A stretch of DNA of 64,000 bases. Origin: Bifidobacterium sp. WK012_4_13 (GTDB taxonomy: Bacteria > Actinomycetota > Actinomycetes > Actinomycetales > Bifidobacteriaceae). The first letter of the stretch is position 1. Every line of letters starts with the position of its first letter. Where the stretch lies: the NCBI RefSeq assembly GCF_041080835.1, contig NZ_CP129683.1:992001-1056000 (forward strand), in the 5' to 3' direction. Below, in pieces: positions 3,948-37,623 of the stretch. A model generated the notes under the pieces. It did not search any database. It saw only the letters and a program-made list of their open reading frames with translations, and was not told the DNA's origin. Made by a program: the position numbers and the translations under genes.

Positions 3948-4448
3948 CTACTTCACCTCCGGTGACGTGATCGAGGCGGCCGCGTTCACACCCGTGGCCG
4001 AGTTGGAAACGGTCTTGCCATCAAGTGTCACGGTCGACCTGATGGAGCTGGCTGAGGTGCCGTTCTGCGCGCTGACGGTCACCTTCTGACCGGTCGTGAC
4101 CTGCAGGGTGGTCGAATATGGCAGCGCCACGTTCTCAGCGGACTTGGTGGCGGCCTTCGAGTCGCCCACCCTGCCGGTCGAATCGGTGGGACTGGCCGAC
4201 TGCGCGTCCAGGCCAGAGGCCGCATCCGACGGCTTCAATCCTGTGTCAGGGTCGATGACCGTGATGGTCACGTCCGTGGCCACGCCCTCGCCTTGCACCG
4301 TAATGGTGGCAATGCTTGTCGTGGAATGTTTGGATTGCTGCGATGTGCTCGTTGACGTTGACACTGGTTCAGGCTGCGCGTTGCCGCACGCTCCCACGCT
4401 CATTAGGAACAGGACTGCTCCCAATGCTGCGCATAATCGTCTCCGCAT
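3948..4448 (-). CDS. Phage-encoded lipoprotein
   Basis: The 166-residue protein begins with four arginine-rich residues, a hydrophobic core and the lipobox LMSVGAC with the lipidated Cys at about position 21. The rest is a Ser/Thr/Ala-rich chain with two short beta-like segments (TITVQGEG, KVTVSAQNG). It has no recognised domain. The frame is open further upstream, but AGGAGG six bases before the ATG at 4448 decides the start. It is translationally coupled to the endolysin. Surface lipoproteins of prophages often block superinfection or act in lysis; either role is inference. Confidence 0.75.
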   Translation of the reverse strand: MRRRLCAALGAVLFLMSVGACGNAQPEPVSTSTSTSQQSKHSTTSIATITVQGEGVATDVTITVIDPDTGLKPSDAASGLDAQSASPTDSTGRVGDSKAATKSAENVALPYSTTLQVTTGQKVTVSAQNGTSASSIRSTVTLDGKTVSNSATGVNAAASITSPEVK

Positions 4449-10766: not shown

Positions 10767-13643
10767 TCAGGCTCCCATCAATGAAGATCGCGCAGATGAG
10801 GCAGCAGTTCTGCCAAGAATGTTGCCATTCACGTATGGGTTGACAACGCCCTTATTGGTGATGCTGAAGTTCTGCACAACATTCGCCGCACCCACGCCTG
10901 CGACGAGTCCGGCTGCCGGACCCGTTGAATAGCTTTTGGCATTTGCGCTCATCTGTGCATTAACGCCGGTGCTTCCGACCATGGCTGCCAATTGACCATT
11001 CACACCGGATACGAATGGTGCGACATTGGCCCTGAAGCTTTTCTCCAGAGAACTGCCAAAACCCTGCATGATGACGTTTCCTGCCGGTATCAGCAGCTTC
11101 GCATCATAGGACAGCGGACCCTTATGCTCCTTGATCCAGTCACCGATGCCGCCAATGAAACTGGTGACATCCTTCCACGCATTCTTTAACCCTCCAAGAA
11201 GGCCTGAAAGGATTGCTTTGCCCGCGCCAGTGAGCCAACTTCCGGCACCTGAGAAGAATCCGGTTATTCTCCCTTTTATCCCAGAAATGGTGCCTATGAC
11301 ATTGCTGATTCCAGTGACGGCCGCATTCTTGATCCCATTCCAAATTGAGGAGAAGAATGTCTTGATCCCGTTCCATGCGCTGCTCCAAATCGTGCGGATC
11401 ACGTTCAATCCACCACCGATGGCAGCGGTGAGCGCGTTCCAGACACCCGTGAACAGGCTGGATATCGCCTTCCATACACCCGAGAATATCTGCTGAATGC
11501 CCTGCCATGCCTGTGACCAGTTGCCAGTAAATGCGCCAACAATGTAGTTAATCACACCCTGAAGCACCGTGAGAACGCCTTGAATAATCCCAACTATCGC
11601 CGTGATGATTGGAGTCAATACAGCGAAGATCGCAGTAATCACCGAGGTTACTATCGGCAGCAAAGCCGTAACCACATTCACTATCGCCGTGATCACAGGT
11701 ATCAGCATGCCAATGAGCATGGTTATAAACGGTGCGATTGCCGCTATCAATCCAACTACGACACCTATGATCTGCCCCACTATCGGCAGAAGGTCAGATA
11801 TGAGCACTGCAATCAACGGTGCAACCACTCCAATGATTGCGGCTATCGCCGTAACAACCGTCGCTATCACCGGAGCCAAGGCCGTCACGATCTCACCTAT
11901 AGCAGTGCCCACCGTTGATGCCAGTTGCGCAAACACTGGCATCAATTGAGTGAACAGGCTTGACATAGTGGAAACGAACTGGGAGAACACAGGCAGCAAC
12001 GCTTGGACCACCTGCATGAACGCCTTGCCAAGCTGGCCAAAAGCGCTTTCCAATGCCGGAAGATTCGCCGTAATCGGAGCCATCAACTGCGAAAACATTG
12101 GCCCCAAGGCACCCAACGCCGCCGAAACCACGGGCATGACCGCAGTAGCGATACTCTGCAACGTGCTACCAAACGACGACACAAGCCCCTCAAGTGACGG
12201 AAGAATCGAATTCCACACACCCTGCACCTGCGTCCACAAGCCCGAAAGCACCTTAGCAAACGACTGCCAAGCCTTCTGACCGGTCTTCGTCTGCGTGAAA
12301 AAGTAAGTCAGGCCAGCCACGAGAGCAGCGATAAGACCTATGACCAAACCGACAGGGCCACCAAATGCCCCCAATACATTTCCAAAAGCCTTTGTTAGAG
12401 CTGGAGCAATTTTAAATGCAGCATTATATATCGTTTGCGCGGTTGTCCATAACTTCACCGCTCCAGTTGCCGCTGTTATTCCTGCTATAAGTGGTTGTAT
12501 CCATTGTGAATTATCTTTAACAAATGTTGACACTTGTTGGAGAGCAGAACTTGCTCTATCGAGCACACCCGAGAATGCTGCCGCCGCACCCTGAGAGGTA
12601 ACCATCTGGCTATTAAACCCAAGTAAATTAGCGAGTGCCTGCCCAATGGGTTGTATCACACCAATTGCAGCCTTGCCAACCGACGCGAGAGCATTGGCGA
12701 ACGTCTGCACAGCACCTGTCGCCATGGTCTGCTTGACGAAATCAGACACCCAATTGCTTGCTGCGGTAATGCGAGCGCCGAATCCATTGATAGCGCCTGC
12801 TATGGTGCTGGCACCGAAAGCGTTAATGACGTTGGCAACGCCTCTGGTGATGGCGGTGTTCACGTTGGTCATGGCGGTGCCTATGCCTTGCGTGGCATCC
12901 TTCGCCTGCTGCGAGAACGATGCGAAACCAGCATATCCGCTCTTGTCTAGCTTGAGCACTGCGGCGTTGAACTGATCAAAGGTGACCGTTCCATCCTTCA
13001 TCGCCTCATACAGATCAAGGCTCTTCGCCTTGGTGCCCAGTATGGATTTCGCCAACTGGTCCATCTGTCCGGGCATCGCGTTGGACACGGAACGCCACGC
13101 GGTCAGATCCACCTTGTTCAGGCTGAGCATCTGCGAGTACTGCTCCATCGCGTCAGACTGCATCTGCGTGCTCTTGCCGCCCGCAAGCAAAGCGTCGTTG
13201 AACGCAAGAGAAATGTCCGTTGCGGATTTCAAATTCTTCGTCAGCGGTGCGAGTTTCTGAACCATGCCAACCATGGAATCCAATGATGTCGGCAAGCCAA
13301 TCAGCTTATCGCTCATGCGTTGAATCTGCTTGGCTGAATCCGATGCGGAATATCCGAGATTCTTCATGACCTTCGGGAAATTATTGATCGTGTCCACACG
13401 GCTGATAGCACCACTCAGGCTGCTAGACACCACACTCGCCGCTTTGGAAACGGCAGAAGACACCAGCCCGCTGATAGCACCCATTTTCGTGGCAAAGCCG
13501 GTTGAAAAGCCTTTGCCGGACACTGCGCCACCATTTGCGCCAGCCTTGGCGGAAGCATCGCCGAAAGCCTTAGATATGGCCTTGCCAACACCGGCCATTG
13601 ACGGAACTATCGCCACATAGGCTTGAGCCAACTCATAAGCCAT
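10767..13643 (-). CDS. Tape measure protein
   Basis: The 958-residue protein has the tape-measure N-terminal domain (MAYELAQAYVAIVPSM; FPKVMKNLGYSASDSAKQI; IGLPTSLDSMVGMVQKLAPL). Two long helical and hydrophobic Ala/Ile/Val-rich stretches follow (about residues 350-460 and 590-720), with WQGIQQIFSGVWKAI-type tryptophan repeats near 730-800. Such proteins fix tail length and exit first during DNA injection; by the usual helix rule a protein this long suggests a tail somewhat over 100 nm. Its gene is the longest in the phage. The stop is two bases from the Dit start. Confidence 0.92.
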   Translation of the reverse strand: MAYELAQAYVAIVPSMAGVGKAISKAFGDASAKAGANGGAVSGKGFSTGFATKMGAISGLVSSAVSKAASVVSSSLSGAISRVDTINNFPKVMKNLGYSASDSAKQIQRMSDKLIGLPTSLDSMVGMVQKLAPLTKNLKSATDISLAFNDALLAGGKSTQMQSDAMEQYSQMLSLNKVDLTAWRSVSNAMPGQMDQLAKSILGTKAKSLDLYEAMKDGTVTFDQFNAAVLKLDKSGYAGFASFSQQAKDATQGIGTAMTNVNTAITRGVANVINAFGASTIAGAINGFGARITAASNWVSDFVKQTMATGAVQTFANALASVGKAAIGVIQPIGQALANLLGFNSQMVTSQGAAAAFSGVLDRASSALQQVSTFVKDNSQWIQPLIAGITAATGAVKLWTTAQTIYNAAFKIAPALTKAFGNVLGAFGGPVGLVIGLIAALVAGLTYFFTQTKTGQKAWQSFAKVLSGLWTQVQGVWNSILPSLEGLVSSFGSTLQSIATAVMPVVSAALGALGPMFSQLMAPITANLPALESAFGQLGKAFMQVVQALLPVFSQFVSTMSSLFTQLMPVFAQLASTVGTAIGEIVTALAPVIATVVTAIAAIIGVVAPLIAVLISDLLPIVGQIIGVVVGLIAAIAPFITMLIGMLIPVITAIVNVVTALLPIVTSVITAIFAVLTPIITAIVGIIQGVLTVLQGVINYIVGAFTGNWSQAWQGIQQIFSGVWKAISSLFTGVWNALTAAIGGGLNVIRTIWSSAWNGIKTFFSSIWNGIKNAAVTGISNVIGTISGIKGRITGFFSGAGSWLTGAGKAILSGLLGGLKNAWKDVTSFIGGIGDWIKEHKGPLSYDAKLLIPAGNVIMQGFGSSLEKSFRANVAPFVSGVNGQLAAMVGSTGVNAQMSANAKSYSTGPAAGLVAGVGAANVVQNFSITNKGVVNPYVNGNILGRTAASSARSSLMGA

Positions 13644-27913: not shown

Positions 27914-28278
27914 GATTCCTCCTCGATGATGCCGTGACCGGCGATGCGTGCCAGGGTATGTAGGTCGGTGAGCACGAAATAGTCGGCAGGGTTAGTGACT
28001 CGAACCGGTTTGAACGCGACCACATAGTAGGGAGCGTCGGCATTGCCCGCTTCTACGCGTGCCTCTGCCAACCATTCCTTGAGCGCATACTGTTTACGGT
28101 TCTTCACTTCGATAACCACGAATTCGCCATGAATTTTCAAACCGGATATGTCGCCAATATCGCGTGTACCGTGCAATGTTTCCCGATGGATCGTATGCTC
28201 GGTATCATCGAGTGCTTGCCGTAGATAGTTCACCACTGCTGTCTCAGCAGCAGTTCCTTTTTGCTTGGCCTTGCTCAT
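27910..28278 (-). CDS. PD-(D/E)XK nuclease-like protein, possible Holliday junction resolvase
   Basis: The 122-residue protein starts at the ATG at 28278 with GGAG. It begins MSKAKQKGTAAETAVVNYL and shows DIGDISGL, then FVVIEVKNRKQYAL, the D...ExK layout of the restriction-nuclease fold. Proteins like this in the recombination block of phages resolve or trim branched DNA. Neighbouring SSB and RecT-like genes support a recombination role. Confidence 0.75.
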   Translation of the reverse strand: MSKAKQKGTAAETAVVNYLRQALDDTEHTIHRETLHGTRDIGDISGLKIHGEFVVIEVKNRKQYALKEWLAEARVEAGNADAPYYVVAFKPVRVTNPADYFVLTDLHTLARIAGHGIIEEES

Positions 28279-28418
28279 ATCAGCTCCGGTTTCTCGTAGA
28301 CGTCGGCCATCCAGCCGCCGCAATGGTTCATGCACTCATGCCACGCGTTCAACACACCACCGCAGTACGGGCAGGAATCATGCTCGGGAGGCGTCTCATC
28401 GAAATAAAGATGATTCAT
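28275..28418 (-). CDS. Small zinc-finger phage protein (47 residues)
   Basis: The ATG at 28418 overlaps the preceding stop and its own TGA overlaps the nuclease start. The product has SCPYCGGVLNAWHECMNHCGG, with paired Cys residues that would bind zinc. It was found by following the overlap chain. Confidence 0.7.
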   Translation of the reverse strand: MNHLYFDETPPEHDSCPYCGGVLNAWHECMNHCGGWMADVYEKPELI

Positions 28419-28591
28419 TCGTAGACCCTTATCCGCTGGATTATGTACTTCTGGTTAGAGTCGGCTTTCTTGTTGTATTCAGCCTTGTTGAGTTCAGCCT
28501 TTGCCTCGTCCTCGAAACCGATGATTGGAGTAATGATGCTGCCGTGGGCGCGATATGAGCAGATGGCGAAAAGTTCAGAAGGCTGGCTCAT
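28415..28591 (-). CDS. Small phage protein (58 residues)
   Basis: Start ATG at 28591, inside the 3' end of ssb. The product begins MSQPSELFAICSYRAHGSI and ends YIIQRIRVYE. It may be a small beta-strand and helix protein. No family was recognised, but the overlaps on both sides support it. Confidence 0.6.
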   Translation of the reverse strand: MSQPSELFAICSYRAHGSIITPIIGFEDEAKAELNKAEYNKKADSNQKYIIQRIRVYE

Positions 28592-29030
28592 CTTCACCAC
28601 CCCCGAAGTCGCTTGCAGGGGAATTGCCGTTCGACCACGGGTCGGATATTCCCAAGAAACCGTCATTGTGCGATGGTGCGGTCTGCTTCTGTACGAGGTC
28701 GACGTGAGACTTCTTCTCAATACGCGCACCAGAGTTCAGATTCACGTCACGATATTCCTTCTGACGATCCTTATCCCACTTCACACTCAGATCACCGGTT
28801 ACTTGCAGCACATCACCGGGTTGGAAATTGGCAGAAAGATTCACCAAGGTCTCGTCCCAGATGGTCGTATGCCAGAATGTTCCGAACCAGTTCGAACCAT
28901 CCTTTTTCTTCCCAATCTCACGCAGATCGATGCGAGCGTAGGATTTGCCTTGATTGGTTTGCCGAACGTCCACCGCTGGACTGCCATTCCTGCCCGCTTG
29001 CAGCTGACCATAAAATTGTATTTTTGCCAT
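28575..29030 (-). CDS. ssb: Single-stranded DNA-binding protein
   Basis: The 151-residue protein has the OB-fold pattern (MAKIQFYGQLQ; SYARIDLREIG; WFGTFWHTTIWDE; GDVLQVTGDLSVKW) and a disordered Gly/Ser/Asn-rich tail that ends in the acidic tip EDEPAF, like the partner-binding tip of bacterial SSBs. It lies in the replication and recombination block. It probably works with the RecT-like protein. Confidence 0.88.
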   Translation of the reverse strand: MAKIQFYGQLQAGRNGSPAVDVRQTNQGKSYARIDLREIGKKKDGSNWFGTFWHTTIWDETLVNLSANFQPGDVLQVTGDLSVKWDKDRQKEYRDVNLNSGARIEKKSHVDLVQKQTAPSHNDGFLGISDPWSNGNSPASDFGGGEDEPAF

Positions 29031-29215
29031 TATCTGTTCCTTTGAGAGTGTGAATGATTCGTATACGGATTGTTGCCCTTGACTCTTACCGGCTTCGCCT
29101 CGGGGCAGGGATAGCGCGGGTCTATTGCATGAGGGCAGCGGAGCGGTCCGATGTCGGGACGGCCACAGACTTCACATGTGCGGACGCTGCCGTTGAGAAA
29201 CTCGGTGCGACTCAT
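29030..29215 (-). CDS. Small zinc-finger phage protein (61 residues)
   Basis: Start ATG at 29215 with GAGG upstream, overlapping the end of the small membrane protein gene. The product has CEVCGRPDIGPLRCPHAIDPRYPCPE, a cluster of four cysteines. It shares one base with ssb. Function is unknown. Confidence 0.65.
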   Translation of the reverse strand: MSRTEFLNGSVRTCEVCGRPDIGPLRCPHAIDPRYPCPEAKPVRVKGNNPYTNHSHSQRNR

Positions 29216-29400
29216 AGCCTCAGCCTCCAAGCCGCCCAGAAAGTGATTCCAAGCGATATGGGGAGGATTGCCAGCCATGGCATGAGACCGATTCCGCGCA
29301 GTGCGCCGGCAACAAGCCAGACGAAGCTCAGGAAAGCGGCAGCACCAGAGATGGCGAAGAGCAGAATGTAGGAGAGAAGCCAGATGAAAGCCCTACGCAT
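29212..29400 (-). CDS. Small membrane protein with two hydrophobic segments (62 residues)
   Basis: Start ATG at 29400. Two hydrophobic segments (FIWLLSYILLFAISGAAAFL and WLAILPISLGITFWAAW) suggest a small membrane hairpin. It overlaps both neighbours. A membrane protein inside a recombination block is unusual, and no family was recognised. Confidence 0.6.
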   Translation of the reverse strand: MRRAFIWLLSYILLFAISGAAAFLSFVWLVAGALRGIGLMPWLAILPISLGITFWAAWRLRL

Positions 29401-30274
29401 TGCTACCATCCTTGCCAGTATCCTGCATCTCATGAGGTGGCTCGATGTCTGGATGCGCGGCATTCCAGAGCGCATCCTTCACACGACCTGCAACGATGTC
29501 GGGCGAGAACAGCAATTGTTCCGCCTCGACGACAGTCAGCTGCTCCGTGCTATGGATGTCACGGCCGGTCAGAGACTTCAGTGCGATGGCTGCCTTCTCC
29601 TTGCTGTCCACGCCGCCATCCGCAAGAAGCTTGGAGATTCTTCGGCAATCCTCCCTGGACGGCGACGGCTCTACCGGCTTGGATTCCGGCCGCTCCTTCA
29701 CGGTTTCCGGCTTCTCTTCCGGCTGCACTTCGGCATGAACCTCGTCGGAGATGTCCTGAATCTCGTCAGGCGTGTATCCTGCGCCATACAGCGCTTCGGG
29801 GCAAGCTTCACGAGCAACCGCGGTGATGCTTCTCCATGTCAACATCGTGATAGGCATCTTGATGTAGTTGCTTGGATTGCCTTTCCTGTCCGGCTTGTCC
29901 AGTCCCATGCGATGTGCCCATGCCTGGTCTCGCGTCACGGAAAATTCAAACTCTGGATCGTCTGCCCTTACAATCGTCGCCCTGACGCTGACGGCCTTCT
30001 CGTCCTTGTAGATTCTCAGCCTATGGCCTGCCTTGCGCACCTGCGATGCGACCAGTTCGGCGCTCATGGTGGGTTTGCCCTTGATGACCGAGATGCGGTA
30101 GAGACTTTCCGCCGGACTCAGCCCCATCGAGGCACCGAAGCCGACCGCGACCAGAATGTTCGCCGGCTTGCCTCTGTACGAGTCGGGCACTATGTCGGCG
30201 CTCTTGGCGAGCTGCGACCACTTTATCTGCGACTGAAGGCTGTTGCCTCCGACTGTTTCTAGATCCTGTCCCAT
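29393..30274 (-). CDS. RecT-like single-strand annealing protein
   Basis: The 293-residue protein starts at the ATG at 30274. The first 170 residues fit the RecT family: KPANILVAVGFGASMGLSPAESLYRISVIKGKPTMSAELVASQVRKAGH, then MLTWRSITAVAREACPEAL. The C-terminal 100 residues are an acidic linker and a small helical domain (REDCRRISKLLADGGVDSKEKAAIAL). RecT proteins anneal complementary strands in phage recombination. The expected exonuclease partner is not obvious; the gene before it may fill that place. Confidence 0.82.
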   Translation of the reverse strand: MGQDLETVGGNSLQSQIKWSQLAKSADIVPDSYRGKPANILVAVGFGASMGLSPAESLYRISVIKGKPTMSAELVASQVRKAGHRLRIYKDEKAVSVRATIVRADDPEFEFSVTRDQAWAHRMGLDKPDRKGNPSNYIKMPITMLTWRSITAVAREACPEALYGAGYTPDEIQDISDEVHAEVQPEEKPETVKERPESKPVEPSPSREDCRRISKLLADGGVDSKEKAAIALKSLTGRDIHSTEQLTVVEAEQLLFSPDIVAGRVKDALWNAAHPDIEPPHEMQDTGKDGSNA

Positions 30275-30798
30275 GAGTATTCCTCCACCTCTTCTTCGCT
30301 TTCCTTCTCTTCGCCGCTCTCGATGCCGAGCAGCTCCTTCGCCTGTCCGAGCACATTCTCGTCCTTGAGCGTCTCCTGCCAATCCTTCGTGACCTTGATG
30401 GCAACGGAAGGCTTCGCGCCGCCCTTGAAGTCGATGCCTGGAATCGCCTCGCCGCCATGCGACTCGATGAGAGCAGCCAGCGCGTCCGGCTTGAACATGT
30501 ATTCCTTCGGCACGAGCACCTGCTCCACGCTGTCCTCCTCGCCGTTGTCGTAGAGCCATGAGGCCAATTCCTTCTCGTCCTTGACATACGGCTTGTCCTC
30601 ATGTCCGTCGCGGTATGAGACTTCGCCGATAATCCCGGTGAGCTTGTCCTTCGAGACCATCCTGCTTGCTAGAAAACTTCTGCAAACCTGGCTGTCCTGC
30701 TTCAGGAACTTGATAAACGCCTCTGCTACCGTGAGACGGTTTGCAATCTCGTACGAGTTGATGTCGCCGTCGGCGATCTGTTCCGCTATGTCCTTCAT
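30259..30798 (-). CDS. Phage protein preceding the RecT-like gene (179 residues)
   Basis: The acidic protein begins MKDIAEQIADGDINSYEIANRLTVAEAFI and ends with an EEK-rich tail and EEVEEYSWDRI. The middle has FKGGAKPSVAIKVTKDWQETLKDENVLG. It overlaps the RecT gene by 16 bases. Its position suggests a role in recombination, but no catalytic motif is visible and no family was recognised. Confidence 0.65.
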   Translation of the reverse strand: MKDIAEQIADGDINSYEIANRLTVAEAFIKFLKQDSQVCRSFLASRMVSKDKLTGIIGEVSYRDGHEDKPYVKDEKELASWLYDNGEEDSVEQVLVPKEYMFKPDALAALIESHGGEAIPGIDFKGGAKPSVAIKVTKDWQETLKDENVLGQAKELLGIESGEEKESEEEVEEYSWDRI

Positions 30799-30914
30799 TT
30801 CAACTTCTCCAAATTCCTATCAAATGTCCGAATTAATCTTTTGTGTCTGCGCCATTCGCGGCGGCTCATGACCGAGCCGCGCATGTGCCAGATGAGATGT
30901 CTAAGCCCGCTCAT
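30795..30914 (-). CDS. Small basic phage protein (39 residues)
   Basis: A strong GGAGG lies seven bases before the ATG at 30914, and the stop overlaps the next start (ATGA). The product is very basic (MSRREWRRHKRLIRTF). Size and charge suggest a nucleic-acid-binding peptide, but this is inference. Confidence 0.6.
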   Translation of the reverse strand: MSGLRHLIWHMRGSVMSRREWRRHKRLIRTFDRNLEKLK

Positions 30915-30999
30915 GCTCTAACCTCCACTCCTGAATCAGCCGCCTGCACACGTCAGGGCTGAACCGTTCGAAATCAACCGGATAAGCAGACTTATTCAC
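30901..30999 (-). CDS. Possible very small gene (32 residues)
   Basis: A GTG at 30999 overlaps the stop of the upstream gene, and the frame ends at 30901 inside the start region of the 39-residue gene. The product has AYPVDFERFSPDVCRRLIQEW. Overlaps at both ends favour it. A longer version from an ATG at 31029 is possible. Confidence 0.4.
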   Translation of the reverse strand: MNKSAYPVDFERFSPDVCRRLIQEWRLEHERA

Positions 31000-31216
31000 G
31001 CCACTCACCACCAGGCTTGAGCGGAGCATTCCTGGCCCAACTGCGCAACTCTTCAGCACTTGCTTTAGCTCGAGATGATCCCGGATATATAACAACTACT
31101 GAGTTGTTGTTGAACGCATCGCGAACACATTTGTAATCGATGTTGAGAACACGGCTTGCATCCATAGCTGTCCAATACTCAACGCTCTTCAGCTCTTCAA
31201 TAGATTTCATACTCAC
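30992..31216 (-). CDS. Small HTH DNA-binding phage protein (74 residues)
   Basis: The start is a GTG at 31216 overlapping the previous stop, or ATG at 31210. The core VEYWTAMDASRVLNIDYKCVRDAFNNNSVVVIYPG has the pattern of an excisionase-like or MerR-type winged helix that uses a short recognition helix. It could be an Xis-type or regulatory protein. Confidence 0.6.
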   Translation of the reverse strand: MSMKSIEELKSVEYWTAMDASRVLNIDYKCVRDAFNNNSVVVIYPGSSRAKASAEELRSWARNAPLKPGGEWRE

Positions 31217-31554
31217 GCTGCTTTCTCATATTCTGCGAGCGCGTATCTGGCGCATCGGTGTCCCGTGCTGCTTTGACCGTCACGGTCGGCAACGACTGCG
31301 AGTCCCTTGTCGACGAGCTCGTTGAGACGCGTGCGTATGGTGCTGCCGGAGATGGGATGCTGCAGGTGGGCTTCGACCTCGCGCTGTATCGCCCATGCCT
31401 CGGCGGGTTCGGGGTGATATTCGAGCATGCGGTGCATCGCCACGAGCACCAGTTGCTGCATGCGGCTCACATTCACCGAATCGGCGGCCTCATATGAGGT
31501 TTCAGGCGAACCATTCCTCGTGGGAGGCTGGGGAGGATCAAGCAATGTTGACAT
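31213..31554 (-). CDS. Winged-helix phage protein (113 residues)
   Basis: Starts MSTLLDPPQPPTRN after CGGAGG. The middle (QQLVLVAMHRMLEYHPE, AIQREVEAHLQHPISGSTIRTRLNELVDKGLAVV) is a clear winged helix-turn-helix. It is the first sizeable gene of the leftward early operon and probably regulates it or replication. DNA target is unknown. Confidence 0.7.
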   Translation of the reverse strand: MSTLLDPPQPPTRNGSPETSYEAADSVNVSRMQQLVLVAMHRMLEYHPEPAEAWAIQREVEAHLQHPISGSTIRTRLNELVDKGLAVVADRDGQSSTGHRCARYALAEYEKAA

Positions 31555-31594
31555 GGAGCACCTCCGAAAATGTTGGTAGGATGAATGAAGACAT
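31538..31594 (-). CDS. Possible 18-residue leader peptide
   Basis: An ATG at 31594 has AAAGG seven bases upstream and opens an 18-codon frame that runs over the ribosome site and start of the winged-helix gene. This is the geometry of a coupling leader. Weak evidence, listed for completeness. Confidence 0.3.
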   Translation of the reverse strand: MSSFILPTFSEVLHVNIA

Positions 31595-31614
31595 GTGATT
31601 ACCTTTCTATGTCG

Positions 31615-31645
31615 TAGCCCCGTAGCCGCGGGGCTTTATTTATTT
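31615..31645 (+). terminator. Rightward intrinsic terminator in the early leader
   Basis: AGCCCCG pairs with CGGGGCT around a short loop and is followed on the plus strand by TTATTTATTT. No rightward gene precedes it, so its transcript is unknown. Confidence 0.6.
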
Positions 31646-31858
31646 GTGGAAGTAGTTACCGTGCGAGTTAGGAGTTCCGCACGGCCGCTCATACTGTTAT
31701 TGAGACAACTAGCCAGATCAGGAGCATGTCAATCAGTACGGCGCAATTTGCGTCTATTAAGACCGGTTGACGTGATCTATCAAGCGGGAATCCATAGAAC
31801 GATCGAAGACAGGAGTTGCGATAGGCAGCAGCAAATTCTCTGCCAACAACCTCACCAC
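31646..31858. other. Untranslated leader between the Cro-like gene and the early operon
   Basis: This stretch has no credible gene. A 7-pair hairpin (CCGTGCG with CGCACGG near 31659-31685) is present. It should carry the leftward early transcript and may hold an antitermination or regulatory site; I cannot define one. Confidence 0.4.
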
Positions 31859-32140
31859 TCACATATTTGCAGGAAACGTGATGCTCAGTAACCTTCTTGC
31901 TGTCAGCTCCTGAGATGCATGGAATTGTACAGGCAAAAGATCCATTGGCGAATGGTGAGTAGCTTCCGCAATTCGGAGCAAATCATCCAGTGAGAATGGT
32001 GAGCGTCCGTGGATTTTTGAATTGAGAGTCGAATATGGGATCCCGGTCTTTTCTGATACAGACGCCTTCGTCATTCCAGCATCGGCTATAACAGAATCAA
32101 CCTTGGGACCGACCCATGTATTGATGTTTTGTGTAATCAT
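31859..32140 (-). CDS. Cro-like HTH (XRE) regulator
   Basis: The protein has 93 residues from the ATG at 32140. The region VDSVIADAGMTKASVSEKTGIPYSTLNSKIHGRSPFSLDDLLRIAEAT is a typical XRE helix-turn-helix. It is divergent from the repressor gene and first in the leftward early transcript, the position of Cro. Its promoter (TTGACA at 32171-32176 and TATTGT at 32148-32153, 17 bases apart) puts the transcript start at or one base before the ATG, so the mRNA seems leaderless. Confidence 0.82.
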   Translation of the reverse strand: MITQNINTWVGPKVDSVIADAGMTKASVSEKTGIPYSTLNSKIHGRSPFSLDDLLRIAEATHHSPMDLLPVQFHASQELTARRLLSITFPANM

Positions 32141-32235
32141 GGGATTAACAATAGTAATAAATTCATTACTTGTCAATCTTGATTCTTATTGATTTCATTA
32201 CTTGACGTAACATTTATTAGTGATATAGTCATAAT
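32141..32235. promoter_or_regulatory. Divergent promoters and operators of the lysogeny switch
   Basis: Leftward promoter: TTGACA (32171-32176) and TATTGT (32148-32153), 17-bp spacer. Rightward promoter: TTGACG (32202-32207) and TATAGT (32224-32229), 16-bp spacer. The direct repeat TTCATTACTTG occurs at 32162-32172 and 32194-32204 and touches both -35 elements. AGTAAT/ATTACT (32153-32170) forms an inverted repeat over the leftward spacer. These are likely binding sites of the repressor and the Cro-like protein. Confidence 0.75.
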
Positions 32236-32664
32236 ATGATTACAGAACAACAGGAATTGGCTAAACGTGCCGCCACTTTTGTCAAATATGTAAGTAGCGA
32301 GTTAAAGGGTGCGATCAGTTCTCGCGGCTATAACATGTCAGACATCGCCGATGCGCTTGACCGCCCACGTCCAACAATGACTAACTGGCTGAACGGTAAG
32401 GCACAGATACGGCTTGATGTAGCACAAGAAATCTGCGAGTACATCGGCATGGAAATCCAGGAAATCACAGCACGCGCATATACAAGAGTTATAAATGAGC
32501 TAGGCCCATGGCCTCCTATCGAGGTCAATCCCGATCAGTTGTCCGAGGATGAGAAGAAGCGTCTGATAATGGAGAAGGTTCGCAGAGGGGACATGAGCTT
32601 AGCCGCGAATTATGATCCTGACAAGGAAGCGGAAAGAGACTACTACCCTGATGCAGGAGCGTGA
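32236..32664 (+). CDS. Phage repressor (XRE-type HTH)
   Basis: The 142-residue protein has an N-terminal helix-turn-helix (ELKGAISSRGYNMSDIADALDRPRPTMTNWLNGKAQIRLDVAQEICEYIG). The acidic C-terminal part includes NPDQLSEDEKKRLIMEKVRRG. It is paired with an ImmA-type protease gene, which overlaps its 3' end, as in ICEBs1-like immunity systems. No RecA-type cleavage motif is visible, so induction would depend on the protease. The rightward promoter puts the transcript start at about the ATG (leaderless). Confidence 0.82.
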   Translation: MITEQQELAKRAATFVKYVSSELKGAISSRGYNMSDIADALDRPRPTMTNWLNGKAQIRLDVAQEICEYIGMEIQEITARAYTRVINELGPWPPIEVNPDQLSEDEKKRLIMEKVRRGDMSLAANYDPDKEAERDYYPDAGA

Positions 32665-33079
32665 TTTTCATATCGACAGCTCTATGACATATGGTGACAT
32701 GCGACGCTACGCAGACAGGTTGAATGTCACCATAAGCAGCGAACTGCTTCCCGCTGGAGTCAATGGCATATACGACGAGAACCTCAGAATGATTATCATC
32801 GACCGCTCACTCGACTACACTCAAAAACGCTGCACACTGGTACACGAACTATTCCACTGGACATACTTCGACAATTCCTGCGATCCAATACTGCATGCCA
32901 AAGCAGAGAAGAGGACAAGACGTCTTACCGCTGAGCTCCTGGTTCCCGCTAAGAGATTCGACTGCGTGGATCCAGAATACGAGGGTTATGCAGCACTGAT
33001 CGCTAACGATATGAACGTAACCATGCAAGTACTACGCGATTACAAGGAACTCGTTCTTGATCGCAGGCAATACGCCTGA
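32651..33079 (+). CDS. ImmA/IrrE-type metallopeptidase
   Basis: 142 residues from the ATG at 32651, overlapping the repressor gene by 14 bases in another frame. The zinc-protease motif HELFHWTYFD (HExxH) is preceded by IIIDRSLDYTQKRCTLV, and ELLVPAKRFD follows, matching the ImmA/IrrE family. Such enzymes cleave the partner repressor and trigger prophage induction. The last residues ELVLDRRQYA are encoded a second time at 33898-33930, beyond the next gene. Confidence 0.85.
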   Translation: MQERDFHIDSSMTYGDMRRYADRLNVTISSELLPAGVNGIYDENLRMIIIDRSLDYTQKRCTLVHELFHWTYFDNSCDPILHAKAEKRTRRLTAELLVPAKRFDCVDPEYEGYAALIANDMNVTMQVLRDYKELVLDRRQYA

Positions 33080-33162
33080 TCTATCGTCACATTTTTTACA
33101 TAGTTAGCGTTACCATATTTTCAGGCGAAGCAGCCTAGGGAAAAGAAGAAAGAACAAGAGAA

Positions 33163-33855
33163 ATGTCAGATCCTAATCAACCACTAAATCAAATACCACA
33201 GCCTACACAGAGGCCTCAGTCACCTCTCAATAATGGCATATCACCAGTAAATAAAGGAACAAGTGGTATGGCAGTGACCTCTCTTGTACTCGGAATCATT
33301 GGTCTAATTCTTTCCTGGATACCTATAGTAAATAATTTTGCAGCAATCCTCGCTGTCATCTCATTGATATTTGGCATTATTGCAATAATCAAAACCGGAA
33401 CGAAGGGAAAGAAGAAGGGACGCGGTCTTGCAATAGCTGGATCGGCGTTGAGTATCGTCGCTTTAATTATCACTTTTTCCATACAACAGAGTGCGTCAAA
33501 AGCATTAGACTCAATCGGCTCAGGATCGACCACTTCGCAAAGTTCAAAATCCGACAGCAACGCTGCCGCCTCTGCAAAGGTTGAATTAGAGGCAACCGCA
33601 ACCGGGACTGGCACTGCAACCTGGGGCGAGGCAGGATCCACCAGCCAAAACAACTTTGATAAAAACTGGAATAAAACAATAACAGGATCAGACGCGCAAA
33701 AAGGTTATATACTCACCGTCATGGGGGACCTCACCGGTACTGATAGCCAGAAGGTTTCTTGCACTGTACTAGTCAATGGTCAGCAAAAAAGCCATAAGGA
33801 GGCAACTGGTACAGCAGGCACAGTGACATGCGATACATCCGGATTATTTAACTAG
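33163..33855 (+). CDS. DUF4190 membrane protein with MmpS-like C-terminal domain
   Basis: 230 residues. The Pro/Gln/Asn-rich N-terminus is followed by two hydrophobic segments of DUF4190 type (MAVTSLVLGIIGLILSW and AAILAVISLIFGIIAII), GRGLAIAGSALSIVALII, a Ser-rich linker and an extracellular beta domain (ATWGEAGSTSQNNF, GYILTVMGDLTGTDSQKVSCTVLVNGQ, TVTCD) like actinobacterial MmpS-type domains. It would sit in the membrane with the domain outside. A prophage gene of this type expressed in lysogens may change the host surface or exclude other phages (inference). It has its own terminator. Confidence 0.8.
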   Translation: MSDPNQPLNQIPQPTQRPQSPLNNGISPVNKGTSGMAVTSLVLGIIGLILSWIPIVNNFAAILAVISLIFGIIAIIKTGTKGKKKGRGLAIAGSALSIVALIITFSIQQSASKALDSIGSGSTTSQSSKSDSNAAASAKVELEATATGTGTATWGEAGSTSQNNFDKNWNKTITGSDAQKGYILTVMGDLTGTDSQKVSCTVLVNGQQKSHKEATGTAGTVTCDTSGLFN

Positions 33856-33867
33856 GCATCGCCTATT

Positions 33868-33893
33868 TAGCCCCGCTTCGGCGGGGCTTTTTC
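33868..33893 (+). terminator. Intrinsic terminator after the DUF4190/MmpS-like gene
   Basis: AGCCCCGC pairs with GCGGGGCT around TTCG, followed by TTTTTC. Confidence 0.9.
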
Positions 33894-33897
33894 ATCT

Positions 33898-33930
33898 GAA
33901 CTCGTCCTCGATCGCAGACAATACGCCTGA
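33898..33930 (+). pseudogene. Remnant of an immA 3' end
   Basis: 33 bases match the end of the ImmA-like gene (33047-33079) at 30 positions. All three differences are synonymous, so both encode ELVLDRRQYA and stop. This is the tail of a second, diverged immA copy, left on the far side of the DUF4190 cargo gene. Confidence 0.8.
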
Positions 33931-33987
33931 GCATTGTAGGGGATATCATTCAGATAGCATCGATTCCGAAGGAGACAGGATTTCAAT

Positions 33988-34425
33988 ATGGTCAGCAAGC
34001 TAAACGATAGTGATGCTTCCACGCTTATATCTCTCCTGAAGGACTGCGTAGAGAAGAAGTTCGTCATGCCGCAAGGTGGCGAGCATAACAAGGGATTCTC
34101 TGTAAAATCACGAACAACAGATGATGAATTTCGGATAGAGATGTACCGGGGAAAAATAGATTTTGATAAACATTCCATCATTGCGATGACCGTTCCTGGG
34201 AAGGTTACACTCTTCAGACTCTGTGTTCACTATCATCCTCACAGGAATCCAGATGGAACGGTAATAAAAGGTGCACATCTTCACTTATATTCAGAGGAAT
34301 TTGGTTCACACCTCGCGATACCAGTGGACATTTCCTCCCCGAATTTCATTGATGACACTATCATGGTATTAGATAAATTCAACGTGATAGACAAGCCTAA
34401 ACTAATAGACGGGATGATGCCATGA
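33988..34425 (+). CDS. DUF6978 protein, first gene of a two-gene module
   Basis: The 145-residue protein begins VSKLNDSDASTLISLLKDCVEKKF and continues IEMYRGKIDFDKHSI, LCVHYHPHRNPDGTVIKGAHLHLYSEEFG and NFIDDTIMVLDKFNVIDKP, the pattern of DUF6978. The family is usually paired with a DUF1828 protein, as here; the stop overlaps the next start. Biochemical function is unknown. It lies between immunity genes and integrase, where prophages keep cargo expressed in lysogens. AT-rich compared with the late genes. Confidence 0.8.
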   Translation: MVSKLNDSDASTLISLLKDCVEKKFVMPQGGEHNKGFSVKSRTTDDEFRIEMYRGKIDFDKHSIIAMTVPGKVTLFRLCVHYHPHRNPDGTVIKGAHLHLYSEEFGSHLAIPVDISSPNFIDDTIMVLDKFNVIDKPKLIDGMMP

Positions 34426-35195
34426 CCAACGGTTTTGACACCAAAACTCTCGTTGACGGCTATGCCGATTGGCTGAAAAGCAGCGCCACTACACGAGTTG
34501 TTGACCGGTGGACCGAGATCACAGTGCCCTTCTTGGACCACGCGAACGATCACTTCCAGTTTTACGTGAGATTGTACGATGACAGAATGTCTTTCAACGA
34601 TGACGGTTATACGCTTAATGGACTCATCACATCAGGGTTCAACATGAAGAGTTCAAGAGCCGACAGACTTGGGGAGATCGTCAAACAATTTGGGGCGACA
34701 CTGGAAAATGGTTCAATAGCCATGTCAGCGCCATCCGATAAATCAGCCGATGCCATGAACAGATATGTTCAAGCTCTCATTCACGTTGATTCGATGATTG
34801 AAACAATAACCCATAGAATTATCGGATACTTCGCAGAAGATGTTGCCCAAGCCTTACTGCAACAAGACCTTTTCTTTACTCAAAATGTGAGCATAACGGG
34901 AAAGTCCAAATTCCAGCATATTTTTGATTTTCTTTTCCAACAGACCAAATCTACACCTACAAGATTCGGTCAGGCTCCTGCCACGCTAGACAAGAACAGT
35001 ATGGCCACAATCCTATTTAACTGGGATGATGCAAGAGGATCTGAGAAAAGAAAAAACGCAGAGCTTATCGTATTCGGCAACGACAAGGATAAGCCGATAA
35101 ATTCTGATGTCTTGGCTGGTTTCGACGAATACAATGTACCAGTATTAAAGTATTCTGAAATCCCTGATAAGGCACAAATGATGCTATCTGCTTAG
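34422..35195 (+). CDS. DUF1828/DUF1829 protein, second gene of the module
   Basis: 257 residues. The N-terminal domain has the DUF1828 signature (ITVPFLDHANDHFQFYV, then MSFNDDGYTLNGLITSG). The C-terminal domain (VSITGKSKFQHIFDFLFQ, NSMATILFNWDDARGSEKRKNAELIVFGND, DEYNVPVLKYSE) fits DUF1829. The pairing with DUF6978 and a 4-base overlap suggest a functional pair. Cargo with a defence or toxin-antitoxin role is a reasonable hypothesis, not shown by sequence. Confidence 0.8.
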   Translation: MTNGFDTKTLVDGYADWLKSSATTRVVDRWTEITVPFLDHANDHFQFYVRLYDDRMSFNDDGYTLNGLITSGFNMKSSRADRLGEIVKQFGATLENGSIAMSAPSDKSADAMNRYVQALIHVDSMIETITHRIIGYFAEDVAQALLQQDLFFTQNVSITGKSKFQHIFDFLFQQTKSTPTRFGQAPATLDKNSMATILFNWDDARGSEKRKNAELIVFGNDKDKPINSDVLAGFDEYNVPVLKYSEIPDKAQMMLSA

Positions 35196-35213
35196 CCGGC
35201 ATAAACAACAAAA

Positions 35214-36452
35214 TCATTTTTCTACTGGTTCTACTGTCATTGCCGTTTTCCCGGTAATGTCTGCGAGCGCTTTTACGTTCCAGTGGGTGTATCCGGCTGT
35301 GGTGTTGATGTCTACGTGTCCCATGATGCTTTTGCGGGCGTCTTCGGATGCTCCGGCTATGGCGAGTTGGGTGGCGAAGTAGTGGCGTGCGCTGCGTATG
35401 GTTACGCTGGGTAATCCTGCTGATTCTAATGCTCGTTGCCAGCGTCGTCGTTCGACCGTATTGGTCAATGGCTGTCCCTTGCGAGTGAAGATGAGATCGC
35501 CTGACTTCAGGTCATGGTCGGATGCCCAAGCGGAGAGGTCATTCCAGAGGGTTTTGCTGACGGGCACGATGCGCTCACCCTTCTTCGATTTCGGAGGCAC
35601 CATCCATATACCCCCGGCAACCGGTTCCGCCTTGAGCCATGAGGGTATGACCGCACCCTTGGCATAGCGTTGCAGTTCGTGGCATACGTGGATTGCTGGA
35701 GTATCGTCCACTTTCACAAGATCCGCTGGGGTGAGCGCGAACCGCTCCCCCTGGCGCATGCCGGTCTCGAACGCGAGCCGCCACATGAGACCCCACATCG
35801 CGTCATCCTCTGGACTGTCCGGCCACTTGTTCTGACCCCTCTTGCGCTTCACCTCGCCAGAAGCGCTGGAAGCGGCCTCAATGAGCTTTATGGGCTGGCC
35901 AACATCAAGTATCACTGTCGGGTTCGCCTCGACCCTGGGCGGGTCACAGCGAGCGCACACGTTGTTTTCTATCAACCCCTCGCCCACGGCATCGTCGAGC
36001 GCGTTGGAGAGTCGACGGTAGGCGTTGAGCGCGGTTTTGCTGCTGCGAGTTGAGGTGATGTCCCGTTCGAGTTTTCGGATGTGGGCGGTGGTGATGTCTG
36101 CAAGTCTGACGGCTCCGATGCTGTTCGTGATGTTCCTGCAATCTGAGCGGTAGGATTCCCATACTCTGGGTTTGACGTTGGGGCGTTTGAATTCCTCGAG
36201 CCAACGGGTGAGCCAGTCCTTCAACGCGGGGGTGTGGGAGGATTCGATGACTCCGGTGGCGATGTACTTTCTCTTGGCTTCGAGGTACTTGGTCCTTGCC
36301 TTGATCGGATCCTTGGCGGTGAAGGTCTTATGCCGTCGCTTGCCGGTCACTGGGTCGGGTGGGAGTTCTAGCCGATATACGGTGTATCCGCGCGTGTCGG
36401 TGCTGACGCTCCCTGAGCCTTTAGTCCTGCGATGGTCCTTTTTCTTCGCCAT
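35214..36452 (-). CDS. int: Tyrosine recombinase (phage integrase)
   Basis: 412 residues. The N-terminus has an AP2-like arm-binding domain (GSGSVSTDTRGYTVYRLELPPDPVTGKRR), then a core-binding SAM-like domain (LKDWLTRWLEEF to about residue 160). The catalytic domain carries R in ETGMRQGERFAL, SARHYFATQLA, the LxxHxxxxTTxxYTHW-type MGHVDINTTAGYTHW with the nucleophilic Tyr. It is transcribed away from the tRNA-Gly gene, as in many tRNA-integrating phages. Confidence 0.95.
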   Translation of the reverse strand: MAKKKDHRRTKGSGSVSTDTRGYTVYRLELPPDPVTGKRRHKTFTAKDPIKARTKYLEAKRKYIATGVIESSHTPALKDWLTRWLEEFKRPNVKPRVWESYRSDCRNITNSIGAVRLADITTAHIRKLERDITSTRSSKTALNAYRRLSNALDDAVGEGLIENNVCARCDPPRVEANPTVILDVGQPIKLIEAASSASGEVKRKRGQNKWPDSPEDDAMWGLMWRLAFETGMRQGERFALTPADLVKVDDTPAIHVCHELQRYAKGAVIPSWLKAEPVAGGIWMVPPKSKKGERIVPVSKTLWNDLSAWASDHDLKSGDLIFTRKGQPLTNTVERRRWQRALESAGLPSVTIRSARHYFATQLAIAGASEDARKSIMGHVDINTTAGYTHWNVKALADITGKTAMTVEPVEK

Positions 36453-36477
36453 GTTCGTTCCTCTCCTGCCACTAGTT

Positions 36478-36533
36478 TAGTAGGGACTATGGTAGGGACT
36501 ATAACCACCGTAAACCACCGTAATTCACCGTAA
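36478..36533. repeat. Arm-type repeats near the attachment site
   Basis: Two TAGGGACTA repeats (36481-36489, 36493-36501; 12-bp spacing) are followed by three CACCGTAA repeats (36506, 36516, 36526; exactly 10-bp spacing). They lie between integrase and tRNA-Gly and probably bind the integrase N-terminal domain, and may also control its expression. Confidence 0.75.
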
Positions 36534-36624
36534 TCGGGTTTCAGTCGGGAAAAAGCGAGCGCATGGAATCGTTGAGGTGATTGGTAATAATCGTTGGAAT
36601 GCCGCCACTGTGCGGCTCCGTGTG

Positions 36625-36698
36625 TGGAGCGGGCGACGGGAATCGAACCCGCGTAATCAGTTTGGAAGACTGAGGCTCTACCATTGAGCTACGCCCGC
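36625..36698 (-). tRNA. tRNA-Gly (UCC), likely prophage attachment site
   Basis: Acceptor GCGGGCG/CGCCCGC, D arm with AATGGTA, anticodon stem TCAGT/ACTGA with loop CTTCCAA (anticodon TCC), T arm CGGGTTCGATTCCCG, discriminator T and encoded CCA. The integrase lies just 3' of it, so the 3' half is the presumed attB/attR core. A -10-like TATAAT lies at 36744-36749 on the same strand. Confidence 0.95.
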
Positions 36699-36798
36699 AT
36701 TGGTGCGAAAGCGGCTTCGCCACTCTCACAGACAACCTGAGTAATTATACATGCACCCCGAACATTGCGCGACACGCAGCGCAATCAACCCAGCGCAA

Positions 36799-37623
36799 TC
36801 ACCGCAGCGCCAGGTGCGCAGCGATGAAGATCATCATGATGCCGATGATGATGTCGAGCACCAGCCATGCGTATTCGTTCTTGAAGAGCTTCGACATCTT
36901 CGATGACAGGAAGCCAAGAGAGATGAACCAGACCACGCTGCAGAGCATCGCTCCGGCTGCGAACGACCATTTCAGACCGGCACCGTACGAGGCGGCGATG
37001 CCGCCGAGCAACACGAGCGAATCGAGGTAGACGCCGGGGTTCAGGAATGTGAAGCCGAGGCAGGCGAGCAGGCTTTTCCTGAGGGTCGTCTGAGCGCCTT
37101 GCTGAAACTCGTTGCCGGAAGATTCGACGCTGCCAGCAATTGAGGCTGAGGCAGAGCCTCTGAGCGATGATGCCGATTGCACAGTCATGGAATCGGCGAC
37201 GTTACGCTGACTGCCATCCCCTCCGTCATCGTTCGAGCCGCGCAGTTCGCGGTCATCGAGACTTCCACCGCCAGCGAGTGCCATCGCGCGAGCCTTCCGC
37301 ATCCTCAGACGGTTTTTAAGTCTCATCAAAGTTTCAAACACACGCTTGAACGCCGAGAAGCCATATATGAGCAGCACGAAGGCACCAACCAAGGTAAGCG
37401 CCTTGAGAACCTCTGGATGTGCTGAGACCATGCTTCCCATACCGGCAGTGCCAAGACTGATCAATACGATATCCGCGCCAATGCAGATGGTAAGTATCTG
37501 CGGCACGTATGCTCGCGCAATGCCTTGACGAATGATGAAGGCATTCTGCGCACCAACGGCGACGATGATTCCAGCCTGGCTGGTGAAACCTGCGATAAGA
37601 ATCGATAACACTATTGAACTCAC
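36799..37623 (-). CDS. LysE/ArgO-family amino acid exporter
   Basis: The 274-residue membrane protein opens with FTSQAGIIVAVGAQNAFIIRQGI, the LysE family signature, and has about six hydrophobic segments (GLKWSFAAGAMLCSVVWFISLGF near the end). LysE-type proteins export basic amino acids. The central loop (about residues 115-170) is extended, Ser/Gly/Asp-rich and probably disordered, making the protein longer than most members. It is divergent from a LysG-like regulator, the classic arrangement. Confidence 0.88.
   Translation of the reverse strand: MSSIVLSILIAGFTSQAGIIVAVGAQNAFIIRQGIARAYVPQILTICIGADIVLISLGTAGMGSMVSAHPEVLKALTLVGAFVLLIYGFSAFKRVFETLMRLKNRLRMRKARAMALAGGGSLDDRELRGSNDDGGDGSQRNVADSMTVQSASSLRGSASASIAGSVESSGNEFQQGAQTTLRKSLLACLGFTFLNPGVYLDSLVLLGGIAASYGAGLKWSFAAGAMLCSVVWFISLGFLSSKMSKLFKNEYAWLVLDIIIGIMMIFIAAHLALR

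Follow-up and report, generated by a model that had tools for sequence, protein, structure and literature searches.

Why should the last bases of an immA-like gene occur twice at the right end of a prophage of Bifidobacterium sp. WK012_4_13, once in the gene itself and once, without the gene, behind the membrane gene that follows it? The window, the whole stretch of 64,000 nucleotides that was analysed (NZ_CP129683.1, positions 992,001 to 1,056,000), comes from a genome (G000) that belongs to the Bifidobacteriaceae, and the prophage sits in tRNA-Gly. One copy of its att repeat lies in the window and the other to the left of it, so that the prophage spans about 38 kb. The relatives compared include B. 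psychraerophilum (G023), B. mongoliense (G089), B. minimum (G088), a Bifidobacterium MAG (G120), the viral contigs L005, L123 and L128, and L054, a second locus in the genome of the window. The features of the region were as follows.

29393..30559, minus strand: RecT-like annealase gene of the same prophage (PHROG RecT-like, 2.2e-34; Pfam RecT, 2.9e-4, below the cut-off)
32236..32664, plus strand: phage repressor gene, Cro/C1-type HTH (HTH_26, 3.5e-6; PHROG transcriptional repressor, 1.1e-7)
32612..33079, plus strand: immA-like gene, M78/IrrE peptidase (PF06114, 4.1e-9; PHROG metallo-protease, 1.5e-15)
33047..33079, plus strand: immA tail, copy 1, in the immA frame
33080..33162, plus strand: leader of the first cargo, with L005 homology as far as 33126
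33163..33855, plus strand: first cargo, a membrane protein with a weak DUF4190 match (31.7 bits; Pfam cut-off 35)
33869..33888, plus strand: terminator-like hairpin with an 8-bp stem
33898..33930, plus strand: orphan immA tail, copy 2 (31/33 to the L005 immA tail, 30/33 to copy 1)
33931..33987, plus strand: leader of the second cargo
33988..34425, plus strand: second cargo gene A, DUF6978 (2.9e-30) and PADLOC PDC-M24A (2.5e-39), candidate defence
34422..35195, plus strand: second cargo gene B, DUF1828/DUF1829 and PADLOC PDC-M24B (2.7e-67), candidate defence
35214..36452, minus strand: tyrosine integrase (PF00589, 4.1e-17)
36623..36673, strand not given: 51-bp att repeat in tRNA-Gly, with its partner at G000:C1:990690-990740, outside the window

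The Peptidase_M78 match bore out the ImmA-like identity that an earlier note on this DNA had proposed, and the residues H78, E79, L80 and H82 of the M78 HExxH zinc motif were invariant across 16 aligned ImmA proteins (16 sequences of 17, the L123 ImmA being left out). The repressor gene overlaps immA, which thus adjoins a phage repressor as ImmA/IrrE genes do. The membrane gene had been called DUF4190/MmpS-like; the DUF4190 part held only below the Pfam cut-off, and an MmpS-like character found no support in Pfam, PHROGs or NCBIfam. The terminator claimed behind it is present as a pattern, and a cargo gene with its own terminator shows a moron trait. A terminator-like repeat was also seen at 31616-31649, the sequence of which is found again at 33868-33890 as well as in L005, L123 and G024. 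Relatives of the first cargo stand behind immA in L005 and, by search coordinates, in G118 and G091. The PDC-M24A and PDC-M24B genes are adjacent and overlapping, as a candidate pair in PADLOC is arranged. A DNA search of GenBank phages gave no match, a protein search of them gave four records with distant ImmA relatives, and the immA query found no relative among the genome contigs.

The repeated end of immA

The final 33 nt of immA (33047-33079, GAACTCGTTCTTGATCGCAGGCAATACGCCTGA) recurred at 33898-33930 (GAACTCGTCCTCGATCGCAGACAATACGCCTGA), at a distance of 851 nt, and the two copies matched without gaps at 30 of 33 positions, which confirmed the coordinates of the repeat reported behind the membrane gene and its terminator. 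In the immA frame both copies translated to ELVLDRRQYA and a stop, so that the earlier claim of identical residues also held. All three mismatches (GTT/GTC, CTT/CTC and AGG/AGA) were synonymous; with 22 of the 99 possible single changes in the tail being synonymous, three out of three would occur by chance with P of about 0.011, and this suggests that the second copy was once translated. Under the base composition of the window, about 4e-10 ungapped matches of 30/33 were expected. An empirical control took 329 open frames (at least 80 codons from stop to stop) and sought the final 33 nt of each in the 4 kb downstream on that strand; the immA end scored 30/33 and the runner-up 23/33.

Matches on the two sides of the tail

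On the left, the window was 85% identical to L005 over 32527-33126 and 68% identical over 33574-33895, stretches that take in the 3' part of the repressor gene, immA and its leader, and the cargo end together with its terminator. Homology to G024 (32495-33079) and to L054 (32632-33079) ended at the immA stop (33079), and that to L005 continued 47 nt beyond it. On the right, L128 was 89.6% identical over 33907-35261, a stretch that starts within the orphan tail and reaches 48 nt into the 3' end of the integrase gene, and the sole further match of L128 to 28001-37000 of the window was one of 76 nt at 31582-31657 (80%). In two of the three relatives the left-hand homology goes no further than the immA stop codon, and the L128 homology starts inside the tail, so that the tail looks like a module joint. 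Because L005 carries immA and the homologous cargo together, exchange of a left-hand module (immA with the first cargo) is likelier than simple insertion.

The earlier note had advised looking for genomes in which immA is followed directly by the sequence after 33930. L128 is such a case; there the tail continues, in frame, a different type of immA body (VIPNL, then LILDSRQYA), and the right edge of the shared block resembles the end of a window-type integrase gene, whereas L128's own integrase is only 39% identical. L128 is thus a composite too, made by joining, and not a clean ancestor. Behind its PDC-M24 pair, at about 12020-12230, lies a short piece like the end of a window-type integrase gene and then, by eye, the end of a small MKFGMRTP-type frame, so that gene-end remnants occur at the right edge of the cassette.

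In G024, an intact tail-bearing immA is followed by a relative (51% of amino acids) of the gene behind the L123 orphan and then by the same small frame as in L123; after one further gene, L123 has an integrase closely related to that of G024. The exact presumed parent of the window, with an intact tail-bearing immA, PDC-M24A/B and a window-type integrase, was found in no genome searched.

Orphan tails in related prophages

A 33-nt tail profile was made from 14 tails, among them six orphans that a pattern search had already detected, and was run over 60 sequences, some of them overlapping. Every match at E of 2.4e-5 or below was the end of an immA-related gene or an orphan, and the next match stood at 2.7e-3. 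Seven orphan tails without an immA body were recognised, six of which were already inside the search profile; they represent six distinct junctions (G089 and G023 contig 10 counted as one) and lie at six places in five Bifidobacteriaceae genomes, two of them in the window's genome, and on one viral contig. They are listed with the length of their leftward match to an immA, counted from the stop.

Window, 33898-33930: between the terminator and the second-cargo leader; 33 nt
L054, C1 about 988,310-988,333: behind a degenerate immA and an oppositely oriented channel-like gene (TTVGYGD in its frame); 25 nt
G088: small zinc-ribbon-like frame with an early stop, terminator, tail, UzuA/GIY-YIG gene; 29 nt
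G089: HIRAN gene, tail, small gene without a family; 30 nt
G023 contig 10: the same order of HIRAN gene, tail and small gene as in G089, the DNA being 74% identical to G089; 24 nt
Viral contig L123: lipoprotein-like gene (by eye), tail, unnamed gene of about 155 codons; 50 nt
G006: a gene with the tail joined in frame to its end, followed by a small conserved frame; 29 nt

Other cargo between immA and a tail copy, the second arrangement that the earlier note had advised looking for, was thus found in G088, G089, L123 and the second locus of the same genome. The G006 gene that carries the fused tail is 68% identical to the gene behind immA in G024. Coding has decayed in some orphans, with an internal TAA in G089, TCC for TAC in L054 and CAC for CGC in G023 contig 10.

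An orphan was carried by 5 of the 44 loci with an ImmA relative (the survey after removal of seven duplicate loci and the short L066, with L126 counted with L060 and L006 with L055 as their compared stretches were identical), so the joint is not general to ImmA phages. The earlier suggestion of a preferred cargo site behind immA therefore stands as a recurrent joint in related phages, with its six junctions, and falls as a general rule. The same note had named as adverse the occurrence of the segment in an unrelated conserved gene away from immA. No immA was detectable near the orphans of G006 (13 kb) and G023 contig 10 (9 kb), yet both lie between phage cargo genes of a similar sort and not in an unrelated gene.

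Simpler searches were less discriminating. The tail pattern with two mismatches gave mostly noise, as 78 of 189 genomes matched and a reversed control also matched in many, and only places beside immA or phage cargo were used. Exact tail matches fell in 29 stretches of genome contigs, four of them bifidobacterial and at immA tails or an orphan, the remaining 25 elsewhere and without an immA relative; in viral contigs, five of six exact matches were beside immA. When the 45 immA loci left after removal of the seven duplicates were surveyed for repeats of their own immA end, L088 was the one locus other than the window and L054 to exceed its shuffle maximum (21 vs 20); this survey was insensitive, as the known L060 orphan scored 19/33, below its shuffle maximum of 20. 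The 17-mer TATCATTCAGATAGCAT (33944-33960) of the second-cargo leader adjoins a tail in three of the seven exact places found (window, G023 contig 10 and L128), the other four being in viral contigs with unrelated surroundings.

Three of the loci showed further signs of decay or loss. Directly left of the window, at about 986-990.7 kb of G000:C1 (L054, L162), lies a degenerate prophage remnant beside the main prophage, with an immA that has in-frame stops, its own orphan tail, the inverted channel-like gene, a DUF4236 membrane gene and an integrase fragment 72% like the window integrase; the remnant abuts the 51-bp tRNA-Gly att repeat. The zinc-ribbon-like first cargo of G088 (L057), with its early in-frame stop, looks decayed, and the UzuA gene behind the orphan is open. 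Near 4093 of G023 contig 9 (L058), a tail-bearing immA lies about 80 nt from tRNA-Gly (3937-4010) with no cargo or integrase between, and seems to be a prophage end that has lost both.

Edges, source and conservation of the tail

The left edges of the orphans lay 24-33 nt from the stop in six of seven cases and at 50 nt in the seventh, and the fused L128 tail matched leftward for 30 nt; remnants longer than those observed would have been found, and those shorter than about 24 nt would have been missed. With breakpoints spread evenly along a 465-nt gene, the probability that six independent junctions should all fall within 50 nt is about 1.5e-6 by simple arithmetic, a figure that selection for compact genomes would weaken.

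The resident immA genes of G088 and L123 lack the tail and end differently (VIPRLTHV and NLVLSK), so the orphans there are not copies of the local immA end. The window orphan is closer to the L005 tail than to the neighbouring copy, by one base. Only 7 of the 16 aligned ImmA proteins end in a full or nearly full copy, and the tail is therefore not a fixed part of ImmA. In the seven tail-bearing immA genes the last 24 nt were the most conserved 24-nt stretch (0.815, against a mean of 0.59 over 136 such stretches), and tail identity did not track body identity (rho 0.16, 21 pairs of seven genes). Body and tail identity were 94% vs 79% for L005/G024, 54% vs 92% for L005/G023 and 57% vs 96% for G023/L128, with 64-73% tail identity expected from common residues alone. 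Nine of the 21 pairs exceeded synonymous saturation at P <0.05 and 12 did not, in a comparison that rests on 24-33 nt and in which part of the conservation is expected from shared residues. The C-terminus RRQYA (33065-33079) is faintly like actinobacterial ssrA-type tags; if it were a degron, gain or loss of the tail would alter ImmA stability.

Origin of the orphan tail

These findings suggested that the prophage is probably a composite of two phage segments, that copy 2 is the remnant of a second immA, and that modules are repeatedly joined at the 3' end of immA. What was observed directly is that the tail is duplicated and recurs at six junctions, that composite matches lie on either side of it, and that there is a mismatch between tail and immA body. 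Segment one (the repressor end, immA, the membrane cargo and the terminator) would derive from one source and segment two (the last ~30 nt of another immA, the leader, the PDC-M24A/B defence-like pair and the integrase) from another, meeting between the terminator and the orphan tail. The earlier note had read the repeat as a scar of recombination between two related immunity regions, and the six junctions and the matches to different relatives on either side support that reading.

Left-hand (immunity) modules would tend to end at the immA stop and right-hand (cargo) modules to begin inside the last ~30 nt, so that a block of ~30 nt would be present in both. Short-homology recombination at this block could exchange immunity against cargo modules. 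Annealases of the Red-beta/RecT class act on short matches, and the RecT-like annealase of the phage may perhaps take part in the exchange, to which it is linked circumstantially. Recombination at the tail alone cannot make the junction of cargo end and tail, as there is no visible homology there; the first such joining may have been one illegitimate event, retained because it broke no gene.

The tail might instead be a functional part of the cargo cassette, for example part of a promoter upstream of it, which would be compatible with a composite prophage and which we consider rather unlikely. The near-constant length of ~30 nt would then be that of a promoter. Tail and leader stay together in the orphans, and the block was kept even though some orphans (G089, L054 and G023 contig 10) no longer code properly. 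Of 15 heads compared by eye, five have a TATNAT box 12-13 nt past the tail stop and a sixth has TATTCT at 13 nt, and weak -10-like boxes were seen by eye in the cargo leaders. Set against this, a scan for sigma-70-like sites, which is weak evidence, found none overlapping 33898-33990 and none in either cargo leader, with 7 sites in 32100-35300 vs 6.0 expected. At least three different leader types stand behind the tails, and no Rfam family scored meaningfully (three matches at E of 1 or less, all far below gathering scores and to families of other organisms).

Site-specific integration, with the immA 3' end as attachment site and the cargo as an element between attL and attR, is very unlikely here. 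It would have the geometry described, in the accessible part of PMC6109161, for the 3' end of dnaJ2, where a bifidoprophage tyrosine integrase uses 35-bp att sites and the gene is rebuilt on integration; there too, duplicated gene 3' ends of about 35 bp flank inserted DNA. In those cases attL and attR enclose a whole prophage, whereas here they would enclose small cargo: between the window tails there is a single membrane gene and no recombinase gene, and none was apparent between immA and orphan in L054, L060, L057 or L123, where part of the frames were scanned by family. The left tail copy is present in the window, L054 and L060 and absent in G088 and L123, and the left edges vary from 24 to 50 nt. 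The prophage's own att repeat is in tRNA-Gly, and the profile found no third significant tail copy in the window. Integration at immA was set aside because of the two loci without a left copy and the lack of a visible recombinase gene between the copies.

A tandem duplication that arose locally from the resident immA end, with later insertion or divergence, would account for the same residues being encoded by both window copies, yet the orphan is nearer the L005 tail than its neighbour, if by one base. Such duplication is refuted at two of the five loci with both immA and an orphan (G088 and L123, where the resident immA has no such end) and unlikely at the rest, which leaves it extremely improbable overall. 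Chance similarity was rejected as having next to no probability, given the expectation and gene-end control above and the recurrence in other genomes.

Candidate defence functions of the cargo

Behind the orphans, PADLOC recognised PDC-M24A/B in the window and UzuA in G088, both in its library of known and candidate defence genes, so that two of the six junctions lead into such models; the genes that follow the orphans of G089 and L054 matched none of its models. Behind immA, 16 PADLOC models with eight names were found at 1e-5 among 118 ORFs, compared with one model among 35 control ORFs of the window, a weak contrast in that several models fell on one ORF and some are generic (DEDDh). The 118 ORFs, scanned with PADLOC and Pfam, remained from 129 after removal of 11 (integrases, repeats and small overlapping frames). 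The Ltp domain of host-surface lipoproteins, a family associated with superinfection exclusion, was present in four ORFs behind immA. Going by the PADLOC names, the lysogen probably expresses the cargo and is thereby protected from other phages.

The term PDC-M24 was not found in the literature searched, mostly without subscription papers. Uzume is placed among actinobacterial systems of unknown mechanism in the accessible part of PMC10482375. In G113, G173, G099 and G065 a DUF6978 gene was also seen upstream of an immA-like gene, on its strand and no more than about 1 kb away, and in G027 just downstream of one, which suggests that PDC-M24A and M78 peptidases travel together more widely.

Comparison with known systems

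The closest precedent for the immA-tail joint is that of genes 67 and 68 of mycobacteriophage Island3, which share a 60-bp 3' end and of which Brujita has a single recombinant copy; the accessible part of PMC3029335 explains this by recombination between ~50-bp sequences and likens them to short conserved boundary sequences. As far as that account goes, Island3 concerns one event in one phage pair, with a repeat that ends both genes, whereas here the tail lacks a gene body on one side, the gene is immA and there are six junctions. The same source describes morons and short conserved module boundary sequences. Our cargo resembles these in being extra genes with their own leader, a terminator ahead of the tail at two of six junctions (window and G088) and a short common edge sequence, and differs in that the 3' end of an immunity gene forms the joint and that orphan copies lie inside cargo strings. 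The same short sequence stands at the edges of different modules, with seven orphans at six junctions, and homology edges fall at the tail in L128, G024 and L054 and not in L005.

The hotspots of P2 and P4 prophages combine a fixed locus with changing antiviral systems, beside cos in the case described; in its accessible part, PMC9122126 leaves the mechanism of exchange open, speculates on cohesive ends and calls for experiments. The locus studied here may likewise be a prophage locus with changing defence genes, here by PADLOC model only, but it runs from immA to the integrase and its joint sequence is visible. Mosaicism and integration sites of bifidophages are treated in PMC8705816 and PMC6109161, whose accessible parts mention no immA joint, and in the literature on bifidobacterial prophage cargo, ImmA, boundaries and hotspots, as far as it was accessible (mostly without subscription papers), no such joint was reported.

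The in-frame joining in L128 suggests that the C-terminus of ImmA can be replaced when a cargo cassette is joined. More tentatively, and with considerable doubt, the ~30-nt immA tail might be a dedicated joint at which lysogenic cargo of bifidophages (candidate defence, membrane and surface genes) is docked and strung together by phage-encoded short-homology annealing, with in-frame joining remaking the ImmA C-terminus as in L128; if so, it would amount to a homology-driven, integron-like building of prophage defence arrays. As the joint is visible and recurrent, the mechanism by which defence genes are swapped can be tested with one short sequence. The orphan tail also offers a search handle, since the genes behind it are cargo candidates. 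In these bifidobacterial prophages the immA tail looks like a repeated assembly point for accessory genes, possibly those of phage defence.
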